From an uncultured Lachnotalea sp. (GTDB lineage Bacteria; Bacillota; Clostridia; Lachnospirales; Lachnospiraceae): a stretch of DNA of 33,273 bases. Below the pieces are notes generated by a model that worked only from the letters and a program-made list of their open reading frames with translations, had not been told where the DNA came from and did not search any database. Below are positions 12,481-15,418 of the stretch, in pieces (the first letter of the stretch is position 1; every line of letters starts with the position of its first letter). The position numbers were made by a program, and so were the translations under genes. The DNA is taken from positions 1-33,273 of the forward strand of contig CAOKOS010000027.1 of assembly GCA_948470255.1 (NCBI GenBank), given 5' to 3'.

Positions 12481-13248
12481 TTGAAAGATGAGATGGTGAT
12501 TGTCCCTGCGGTTATGCGGACCCTGAATATAATAGAAGCGCTTTTTTCAAGTTCTGGACCGAAATCTTTAAATGAGCTTTCAAAGGAGCTGGAGATACCT
12601 ACAGCTTCTTTATTCCGAATTATGAAAAACCTGGCGGGGAGAGAATATGTGACAGTCCTGGAAGGGCCTCCTGTCCGCTACACCATTGGCCGCAAGCCTT
12701 TTCAGCTGGTGACTGCCTACAGGAGCCGGACAGACAGGAAGCAGGCCATCAAGCCGGTGATGCAGGAATTGACAGCCAGGACCAATCAGACGGCCCAGTA
12801 TGCAGTTTTTCAGAACGGGCAGTTTATGTATACGGAGCAGGCGCTGTCTGCTGCGGAATTAAATGTCCTGGCTCAGCTCTATATGCCTTTAGAGATCAAT
12901 ACCAGCGCCGGGGCGAAAGTAATCCTTGCCAATCAAAGCATGGAAGCCAAGGAACAGTATTTATCCGGTATCCGGCTCCATAAGCGGACTGGCCGCACCA
13001 TTGATAATATGGAAGATTTAAAGAGGGAGCTGGAGCTTACGAAAAAGCGGGGCTATGGCATGGATGACGAAGAGTTTACGGCCGGTATCGGCTGTATGGC
13101 TGTCCCTGTGTTTGATGGAGAGGGGCAATGCACGGCGGCCATCGGTGTCACGGGATATATTGAGGAATACCGGAATCCTGAGAATTTCGAGCATATTAAA
13201 AAATGCCTGTTTGAAGCAGCCAGGGAGCTCCGGGAAAAACTGTATTGA
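12481..13248 (+). CDS. IclR family transcriptional regulator
   Basis: About 255 residues. The N-terminal winged helix (AVMRTLNIIEALFSS, then LNELSKELEIPTASLFRIMKNL) is a standard IclR DNA-binding domain; the C-terminal part, with INTSAGAKVILAN and GIGCMAVPVFDGEGQ, is the IclR effector-binding domain. I placed the start at TTG 12481 because GGGAGG lies 8 bases upstream and the N-terminus then has the usual length. An ATG at 12448 overlaps the phosphatase stop (ATGA) but has no ribosome site; ATG 12493 is also possible. The neighbouring HAD gene suggests control of a small-molecule pathway, but the effector is unknown. Confidence 0.88.
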   Translation: MKDEMVIVPAVMRTLNIIEALFSSSGPKSLNELSKELEIPTASLFRIMKNLAGREYVTVLEGPPVRYTIGRKPFQLVTAYRSRTDRKQAIKPVMQELTARTNQTAQYAVFQNGQFMYTEQALSAAELNVLAQLYMPLEINTSAGAKVILANQSMEAKEQYLSGIRLHKRTGRTIDNMEDLKRELELTKKRGYGMDDEEFTAGIGCMAVPVFDGEGQCTAAIGVTGYIEEYRNPENFEHIKKCLFEAARELREKLY

Positions 13249-13304
13249 AAATGGACTCAGCTCCAGAATGCTTTGAAAGCTTTCTGGAGCTGAGTCCATT
13301 TTCA
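13246..13304. terminator. bidirectional terminator covering both stop codons
   Basis: A perfect 23-bp inverted repeat, 13246-13268 against 13282-13304, with a 13-base centre that itself holds a GCTTT/AAAGC hairpin. Both arms end in AAAA/TTTT, suiting termination in both directions. The outermost three bases of each arm are the TGA stop codons of the convergent IclR and serpin genes. Confidence 0.85.
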
Positions 13305-14747
13305 GCCTGCAGGATTTTCACAGATACCGATGAAGACCAGTCCGCCGCCGGTTCCGGTGATTCCGTAAAGGAAAGGGCGGGTTAACCGCATATCGGCCCG
13401 GCCGGCCGGCTGCGCTGCGCCAGCATATTCGATGAGTGTGAAAGCGGACGCGTCCACGCCTTCTTCGTTGACGGCGATATGTGTGCCCTGGGTGATGCCG
13501 GAGAAAAAAACAGTGTCATCGGTAATTCCCGAAAAATCCGCGGTTTCTTCAAAAGCGGAGGTGATTCCCAGGGCTTTTAATGTGTCTCCCAGTTGAAGAT
13601 TTGAGGAAAAGTCAAACTTTGGAATTTGCCACACCACTTCGCCGCAGTAATCTTTGCCGCCTTCAAAAGTTTCCCGCATTTTTTCCGGCGTATCGACGAG
13701 GCTTCTGGGGGAAATCCCCTCATCTGGAAGGATAAAAACCATGGTACCGTTTTTTAAAGACAGGCTGGAGCGGGTATAGCCTTCGCCCACAGAGAAACCG
13801 TGGGAATCATAAGTCCGGTTCATAAAATCGCAGGTGACAGGGGAAGCGCCGGAAGGATAAAAGCTGTCGGGCTTTGTCTTAGCTTCATCAAACTGGTCAA
13901 GCCATTGATCATGGAAGCTGACCGTATTGACGAGGTTCAGGGCTGCTTCCCCGCCGGAAGGAAGGCGGGGGGAGAGGCTGCCGTCTGTCTGTTCTTCGAT
14001 CCAGGCGGACATGGCCTGCGCCGCTTCTTCCGTTCCAAGCTCCATGGAAAATATGGAAGAATAGAAATTTTCAGCGGCATTTTCCACAAAACTTTGTTTC
14101 CAGCCGACGGAAACATCCAGCCACAGGGAGTTGGAAATCCTTTGGGTGGAAATTTCATTTTCCGTGTAAGAGCGGCGATAATAATTGCCGCACTGTTCTT
14201 TGAGGGTTTCCGTATCCTGTACTCCCAGCAGGGAAAGAAGCTGATCTTTTGTTTCGCCTTCTGCACCTGTGGCGGCCATGGCCAGGGCATAATACAGGGA
14301 AACGGGGGAATAGTTGATATTTTCATTTCCACCGGCAAAAAGCGCGGAAGCCGTTTCATAAGAAAAGTTTGAGAGGCTGTCGGTGAAACTTTCCTCCACG
14401 GGGTTTTCCTCCCAGGTTTTCATGGTTGTATCCCGGTCGTCAAACTGCCGGGCCGGAGGCATGGACACCTCCATAAGGGGCCGGGCAGCTTCCAGCCGGG
14501 GATTTTCAACCGGAGATTTGGAAAGCCTTGCTCTGGAAAGCGAAAGGATTCCGGCGGCGGCCAGCAGCAGGCAGGCGGCAAAAGCCGGGGCATATCGGAG
14601 GATTTTCCCGGGGCTTTTCTCTGAACCGGGCAGAGGCCCGCCCTTCTTTTCCGCCTCCTCTATCATCTCGTCCGGCACATCAGTAATGGCATCCATGAGC
14701 TTTTTTTCTTTTTTCATTTGGTCTTTCATGGCCGGATTCTTTTTCAC
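13302..14747 (-). CDS. membrane-anchored serpin with anti-sigma-like N-terminus
   Basis: A 481-residue protein in three parts. Residues 1-50 are charged and predicted cytoplasmic, with KLMDAITDVPDEMIEEAE resembling the N-termini of membrane proteins encoded beside ECF sigma factors in Lachnospiraceae. Residues about 53-70 form one membrane helix. Residues about 115-481 are a full serpin (serine protease inhibitor) expected outside the cell: NINYSPVSLYYALAMAATGA, NTVSFHDQW, the hinge NEEGVDASAFT (427-437) and the closing RPFLYGI. The reactive loop centre is small residues, near A444. It starts with GTG, overlapping the sigma factor stop by four bases, after GGGAGGGG. The serpin fold is clear; the anti-sigma role is inference. 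Confidence 0.88.
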   Translation of the reverse strand: MKKNPAMKDQMKKEKKLMDAITDVPDEMIEEAEKKGGPLPGSEKSPGKILRYAPAFAACLLLAAAGILSLSRARLSKSPVENPRLEAARPLMEVSMPPARQFDDRDTTMKTWEENPVEESFTDSLSNFSYETASALFAGGNENINYSPVSLYYALAMAATGAEGETKDQLLSLLGVQDTETLKEQCGNYYRRSYTENEISTQRISNSLWLDVSVGWKQSFVENAAENFYSSIFSMELGTEEAAQAMSAWIEEQTDGSLSPRLPSGGEAALNLVNTVSFHDQWLDQFDEAKTKPDSFYPSGASPVTCDFMNRTYDSHGFSVGEGYTRSSLSLKNGTMVFILPDEGISPRSLVDTPEKMRETFEGGKDYCGEVVWQIPKFDFSSNLQLGDTLKALGITSAFEETADFSGITDDTVFFSGITQGTHIAVNEEGVDASAFTLIEYAGAAQPAGRADMRLTRPFLYGITGTGGGLVFIGICENPAG

Positions 14748-15301
14748 AGATAAATCCCCTCCCTTTCCAATGTATTTTTTAAGGACTTTCGCAGGCGGAA
14801 CATACGGCCTGCCAGTTTGTTTGGTTCCGTTTTAAAAATTTTTGCCAGGGTTTTTAAGTTGTCGCCGAACCAGTAACGGCGGAGAAATAAAAGCCGTTCT
14901 TCCTCTGAAAGGCTGTTAAGCCACCGGACGATGGTTTCAGTCAGGAATTTCCCGTCAATTTCGTCTTCCACAGTCTGGCCGGCGGGAATACAGTCAGATA
15001 ATTCTGAAAGAAGGACGGCTGCCTGTCCTCCCCGTTTTTTCGCGTGGGATTCGTAAAAACGGTTCAAAGAAAGATTGCGGGTAATCCGCCCCAGCCAGGC
15101 AAAGAGCTTGACAGGATGTTCCGGTGGAATGGTATTCCAGGCTTTTACATAAGTGTCGTTGACACATTCTTCGCTGTCTTCGCGGCTGGACAAAATATTA
15201 AAAGAAATCTGGCGCAGTGTTTTTCCGTATTTCAAATCACTGTTTTGGATGGCGGCTTCATCTCTGTCCCAGAAAAGCGCAATGATCTGACGGTCATTCA
15301 T
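14744..15301 (-). CDS. ECF-type sigma-70 family sigma factor
   Basis: A 185-residue sigma factor with only regions 2 and 4, as in the extracytoplasmic function group. Region 2 carries SREDSEECVNDTYVKAWN and WLGRITRNLSLNRFY; region 4 carries LSEEERLLFLRRYWFGDNLKTLAKIF and the recognition helix TEPNKLAGRMFRLRKSL. It would direct RNA polymerase to a small regulon, probably including its own operon. GAGGGGG precedes the ATG. The serpin gene overlaps its stop by four bases, so the two proteins are made together, as sigma/anti-sigma pairs are. No clear promoter was identified upstream. Confidence 0.9.
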   Translation of the reverse strand: MNDRQIIALFWDRDEAAIQNSDLKYGKTLRQISFNILSSREDSEECVNDTYVKAWNTIPPEHPVKLFAWLGRITRNLSLNRFYESHAKKRGGQAAVLLSELSDCIPAGQTVEDEIDGKFLTETIVRWLNSLSEEERLLFLRRYWFGDNLKTLAKIFKTEPNKLAGRMFRLRKSLKNTLEREGIYL

Positions 15302-15418
15302 ATATCATACCCCCTCTTACCTATATAGACAGGAATAAAAAGAAAATATTCGCGCAAAGTACATTTTTTGTCGTATAAATTGTAAAATAGCGAAAGAAAA
15401 TTTGCAATTAAAATCTGC

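Follow-up and report, generated by a model that had tools for sequence, protein, structure and literature searches.

An ECF sigma factor gene in an uncultured Lachnotalea sp. is followed directly by a gene for a membrane-anchored serpin, and this serpin protein is likely the anti-sigma factor of its neighbor. The whole reading, in which the protein is the cognate membrane-bound anti-sigma factor and its serpin loop is the sensor, was considered probable; our confidence in it is held below that in the anti-sigma role mainly because the loop as sensor is only plausible. The pair lies in a window of 33,273 nucleotides (the whole stretch of DNA that was analyzed), where the following features define its layout:

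14744..15301, minus strand: ECF sigma factor gene (185 aa, ATG start; Sigma70_r2 over the cut-off)
13302..14747, minus strand: membrane-anchored serpin gene, the proposed anti-sigma factor (481 aa, GTG start)
14744..14747, minus strand: GTGA overlap of the sigma stop and the serpin start (read from the sequence)
15324..15350, minus strand: ECF-type promoter-like element AATATT-N10-TCCTGTCTATA, upstream of the sigma gene
13247..13303, no strand assigned: perfect inverted repeat, arms 13247-13268 and 13282-13303 (read from the sequence)

The four-base overlap of the two genes, described in an earlier sequence-only reading of this DNA, was confirmed at these bases, and the same spacing (-4) was found in 17 of 27 serpin genes that lie directly behind an ECF gene. 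The sigma ORF matched Sigma70_r2 in Pfam (1.9e-7, 31.2 bits against a cut-off of 24), and its best Sigma70_r4 match was under the cut-off (0.033, 14.1 bits against 24.1). Its matches to ECF models were whole-length, with none over the model's own cut-off among the 25 matches listed. The flanks of the pair are unrelated to it, with an IclR-type regulator on one side and fabH and fatty acid genes on the other. The 22-base inverted repeat lies where the IclR-type gene and the serpin gene converge, overlaps both of their stop codons and is probably a two-way terminator. Elsewhere in the source genome are two further paralogous ECF/membrane-partner pairs in tandem, with non-serpin outer domains (L141, G000:C14:24000-33000); one of these two partners has no Pfam match at all.

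The promoter-like element occurs in its exact form once per genome in 6 of the 11 genus genomes, and it always sits close upstream of the ECF gene. For the broader set of 107 ECF upstream regions, matches of at least 10/12 to TGTCTATATAGG were found in 18, against 1 expected from shuffles. The element argues for autoregulation without proving it, because it was derived from these same genes. The strict pattern gave no regulon beyond the operon in the 11 genus genomes; the loci of the five sites with one mismatch contained no ECF gene.

Within the serpin protein, the following parts were assigned:

14649..14717, minus strand: N-terminal module, residues 11-33 (MKKEKKLMDAITDVPDEMIEEAE), the proposed sigma-binding segment (profile match; purifying selection; helices in a low-confidence part of the model)
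14526..14591, minus strand: membrane helix, residues 53-74 (hydropathy peak from residue 53; AlphaFold helix 53-74)
13311..14375, minus strand: serpin domain, residues 125-479 (Pfam and fold match)
13380..13472, minus strand: hinge and reactive-centre loop, residues 426-456 (NEEGVDASAFTLIEYAGAAQPAGRADMRLT) (hinge/loop comparison; selection)

The architecture first described for this protein (charged residues at the N-terminus, then a single membrane helix, then an entire serpin domain) held up, with the charged part at residues 1-52 and a stalk between the helix and the serpin domain. Both hydropathy and the AlphaFold model predicted a single membrane segment. The model, built with 25 sequences (mean pLDDT 77.7), has helices at residues 5-22 and 26-34, the membrane helix and a serpin fold, with residues 1-52 at low confidence. 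A cytoplasmic N-terminus, one membrane helix and an outer domain make up an anti-sigma-type topology, by prediction. A Pfam scan of the protein returned only Serpin and a weak DUF3426 match (E up to 1). The Serpin match (PF00079, 3.4e-59) covers positions 3-370 of the 370 in the model, i.e. a complete domain, and the fold matches were solved serpins in native, latent and cleaved states. Lipoprotein anchoring was considered for the source protein and rejected: the lipobox pattern had no match in it, and Cys 60 was not read as a lipobox because most of the hydrophobic stretch comes after it. This Cys, which follows two Ala in the first part of the membrane helix (residues 55-62), is common to most partners of the same ECF family (consensus AAC).

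The main evidence for the anti-sigma role comes from the N-terminal module, of which the sequence-only reading had quoted the stretch KLMDAITDVPDEMIEEAE (residues 16-33). Related ECF genes are frequent in the family, with a match in 119 of 299 genomes at E up to 1e-12, and the source genome has 3. The genes directly behind 117 such ECF genes comprised 28 partners with a serpin and 89 without. The non-serpin partners have a common N-terminus, LxxAIxxIDDxxIxEA, followed by basic residues and one membrane helix; when 76 of them were compared with Pfam, only 12 families were matched, each in at most 2 members. A profile was built from 65 non-serpin partner N-termini only and then applied to the serpins. 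ORFs in which fewer than 250 serpin residues were aligned were excluded, removal of 7 duplicates brought the ORFs from 116 to 109, and 4 genes had too short an upstream sequence, which left 105 evaluable serpin genes. The profile matched 23/27 serpins directly behind an ECF gene vs 2/78 others (Fisher p=5e-17); for both matches among the others (L084, L102), the operon has an ECF gene at a greater distance upstream. A lipobox was found in 0/27 ECF-adjacent serpins vs 50/78 others, a pattern that overlooks some evident lipoproteins among the 78. As 15 of the 40 fetched regions had been picked for ECF and serpin matches on the same contig, the share 27/105 says nothing about prevalence; this choice has no obvious effect on how module and neighbor are linked.

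Two further sets gave the same kind of comparison. For the named set, 84,980 named genomes were searched with nothing but serpin core patterns, which yielded 62 loci. Leaving aside 8 loci that repeat earlier genomes and genes with fewer than 700 bases upstream, the profile matched 9/13 ECF-adjacent serpins vs 4/38 others (p = 1.2e-4), the four being L219, L222, L223 and L238, which have no ECF gene nearby. A class-wide draw of 29 loci gave 3/6 ECF-adjacent serpins vs 0/23 others; because some loci are common to both sets, the two counts are not to be summed. The sequence-only reading had likened the N-terminus to membrane proteins that sit beside ECF genes, which agrees with the non-serpin-partner profile matching most ECF-adjacent serpins of the first set, and had proposed that the serpin may be the anti-sigma factor, a proposal now supported by a module that is shared with non-serpin ECF partners and tracks the ECF gene. 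ECF-adjacent serpins that did not carry the module numbered 4/27 (L018, L077, L081 and the signal-peptide serpin in L102), 4/13 and 3/6 in the three sets. Some of these have another cytoplasmic N-terminus, and secreted-looking serpins stand directly behind an ECF gene in L102 (at 3561) and L250. When solved structures were searched with the profile, the 16 matches at E up to 10 included no sigma or anti-sigma protein, and the N-terminal consensus matched no Pfam family in the helix. In four non-serpin partners (L065, L184, L181, L197), the outer part has a similar AxA-EYxxAxxFF stretch at its start, immediately behind the membrane helix, which may be a site of the signal-peptidase type like those of RsiV or RsiP.

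The pairing was then compared across relatives. A serpin match was found in 7 of the 11 genus genomes. All six intact copies have the ECF gene directly upstream with the four-base overlap; in the seventh (G005), the serpin gene is broken and the stretch read has no ECF match. A complete sigma/serpin pair was also found in another class, in Cohnella sp. AR92 (L218). In Tissierella praeacuta DSM 18095 (L248), the serpin gene looks broken, and only a C-terminal piece of an ECF gene was matched. For six orthologues (47-52% identical; L219, L222, L223, L224, L226, L238), tblastn at E 1e-3 found no ECF gene within the 3.6-6.4 kb retrieved. The sequence-only reading had named the absence of the sigma gene, or an N-terminus that is not conserved, as outcomes that speak against it. 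Without a nearby sigma gene, the module was lost or eroded in 5/6 (its helix is gone in L223, L224 and L226 and eroded in L219 and L222) and nearly intact in one (L238, where the helix is mostly kept), while all six retain the membrane segment and the serpin. Loss of the sigma gene and loss of the module appear to go together with one clear exception (L238), a comparison that covers the nearby stretch only, a sigma gene elsewhere being possible. The dN/dS against G006 was 0.02 for residues 11-33, 0.27 for the linker behind them, 0.09 for the serpin body and 0.15 for the loop; against G007 it was 0.06, 1.10, 0.15 and 0.08, respectively, with the stretches being small and dS near saturation in the G007 pair. 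In these closest comparisons, the module with its helix shows strong purifying selection, the strongest of the four stretches.

Serpins are frequent among gut bacteria, where some of them inhibit proteases of the host. The hinge of the source serpin is EEGVDASAFT, with the loop continuing as LIEYAGAAQPAGRADM, and loop residues 439-448 are flexible in the AlphaFold model. Across 7 close relatives, ASAFT is invariant and YAGAA nearly so. We take the small residues of this hinge to allow loop insertion, which would be compatible with an inhibitor. A hinge of the EGVxAAAYT type is also found in lipoprotein serpins of the same family. The usual spacing presumably puts the cut near Ala-Ala, an elastase-like site, and the loop sequence suggests that the attacking serine protease is perhaps of the elastase or subtilisin type.

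The connection of serpins to ECF genes seems to have arisen or lapsed many times. On a tree of 105 serpin domains (quick method), the ECF-linked form requires no fewer than 15 changes, and well-supported branches force 7 of these; with shuffled labels, the mean was 25 changes, and 0/500 came out as low as 15. This points to serpins having switched repeatedly between ECF-linked and other forms. ECF genes of other groups also stand ahead of serpins whose cytoplasmic N-termini differ from this one (L018 and L249; L081; L246 and L257), and L285, L286 and L293 may add further N-terminal types. An N-terminus of the L257 (Tissierella) type was also seen in L269, with no ECF gene nearby. At 10 further loci, the membrane partner and the serpin are separate genes that come in this order behind the ECF gene, and 8 of these 10 serpins have a lipobox, so the inhibitor and the brake are neighbors in some species and one protein in others. 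More broadly, we would give an even chance to the view that Clostridia and at least one Cohnella have repeatedly placed a suicide protease inhibitor outside ECF anti-sigma factors, with at least four inner N-terminal types and several sigma groups, and that the shape change on loop cutting is the signal, which would make these proteins a general class of protease-attack sensors that unite receptor, inhibitor and brake in a single molecule and are spent on firing. Among the serpins surveyed, those of L073, L083 and L090 have neither a signal peptide nor a membrane segment and are apparently cytoplasmic, and one contig has five consecutive serpin genes on one strand (G099:C51:927-7664).

For the source pair, we infer a course of events that comprises sigma binding, protease inhibition, protease sensing, stepwise proteolysis and autoregulation. 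The cytoplasmic module (about residues 11-33) would hold the sigma factor at the membrane, with one helix spanning the membrane and the outer serpin domain serving as a sensor that is also the bait. A serine protease that attacks the reactive loop would be trapped by the serpin, whose change of shape would then lay open the stalk or the membrane segment, first to a site-1 protease and next to a site-2 protease. Degradation of the N-terminal piece would free the sigma factor, which would transcribe at least its own operon and so yield more inhibitor. Both the reactive loop and the precedent of RsiV are consistent with the putative protease-sensing step. One site-2-type M50 protease is present in the source genome, which says little because all 14 control genomes (14/14) have M50 as well.

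Some of this evidence can be read in other ways. If the N-terminus were the anti-sigma module and the serpin a mere effector, the protein would be a surface-tethered inhibitor under its own sigma factor, answering another trigger, e.g. damage to the membrane or the wall that is perceived by the stalk or by the membrane segment. That serpins can be plain operon outputs follows from the 8/10 loci where a separate, third-gene lipoprotein serpin lies behind the ECF and membrane-partner genes, and the trigger need not sit in the outer domain, because Pfam has no name for the outer domains of most of the 76 non-serpin partners. However, the serpin is here fused to the brake itself, in a form that was repeatedly gained or lost; because lipoprotein anchors were available, such repeated fusion exceeds the needs of tethering. 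The reactive loop is also conserved, and we regard a mere effector as unlikely.

A serpin domain that is a non-inhibitory sensor of a ligand or condition, like the hormone-binding serpins, and that signals without a protease, seems improbable. Two positions count in its favor, an aromatic residue at P9 of the source serpin and a Val at P14, where we take Thr or Ser to be common in eukaryotic inhibitors. Against these stand the small residues (V, A, A, T) at the positions that would face inward once the loop is inserted, the hinge type shared with the lipoprotein serpins, a model that matches latent and cleaved serpins as well as native ones, and the inhibition of human elastase and proteinase 3 by related gut serpins (PMC5127057). 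Finally, the sigma and serpin genes could be neighbors by chance or operon convenience, with the N-terminus being an ordinary membrane anchor. The persistence of an anchored serpin in the six orthologues that have no nearby sigma gene fits such an account, but the module is also found in ECF partners that are not serpins, its occurrence follows that of the ECF gene, and most copies without that gene nearby have lost it or have it in eroded form. Given the genus-wide pairing and the enrichment in both the first and the named set, a chance neighborhood was rejected as very improbable. We keep to the probable reading of an anti-sigma factor whose serpin loop is the sensor.

Our literature search, with subscription papers mostly outside its reach, found no serpin linked to an ECF sigma or anti-sigma factor and no signalling role for any bacterial serpin. 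If the proposed reading is true, bacteria would use the very inhibitor to sense proteolytic attack, much as lysozyme is sensed by RsiV, and the serpin, changing irreversibly, would amount to a counting, self-consuming receptor. The short N-terminal module is also a handle for finding other sigma/anti-sigma pairs in Clostridia, most of them with unnamed outer domains.

Several known systems resemble the pair in part. Class I and II anti-sigma domains (RsiW, CnrY; PMC8103513) place a short cytoplasmic sigma-binding segment before one membrane helix, as proposed here; the source protein gave no sequence match to them, and its residues 1-52 have no Cys and no His and thus no zinc site of the class I type. 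The siropins of Eubacterium siraeum, bacterial lipoprotein or secreted serpins from a gut bacterium, have the same serpin fold and hinge type; that paper (PMC5127057) describes no cytoplasmic module, and the words sigma factor, signal peptide and transmembrane are absent from it. A serpin phylogeny (PMC8233489) notes membrane-anchored prokaryotic serpins, with the word sigma absent from it. The SigI-RsgI systems of cellulolytic Clostridia (PMC12484212, PMC3413522) are similarly modular, with one inner part and exchangeable outer sensor domains, some of them enzyme-like. In contrast to the source pair, SigI belongs to another sigma group and RsgI outer domains bind carbohydrates; the Pfam scan found no RsgI domain in the source serpin protein, whose sigma factor matches ECF models, and an RsgI_M match was found in 2/76 related non-serpin partners. 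The same scan gave no match to DUF4179 or RsiV families, and judged by these domain assignments, the protein is a member of neither the RsiV nor the RsgI family. A direct precedent is SigV-RsiV of Bacillus subtilis and Clostridioides difficile (PMC5014341), where RsiV is receptor, anti-sigma factor and lysozyme inhibitor in one protein and is cleaved by signal peptidase and RasP as the two proteases. Both systems pair an ECF sigma factor with a membrane protein, an anti-sigma factor in the case of RsiV and likely one here, and the outer domain of RsiV binds and inhibits the enzyme that is sensed, as proposed for the serpin. Two-step proteolysis frees SigV, and its operon feeds back on itself; we infer both for the serpin pair. 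The outer domain of RsiV binds lysozyme and does not belong to the serpins, and a serpin would be spent irreversibly.
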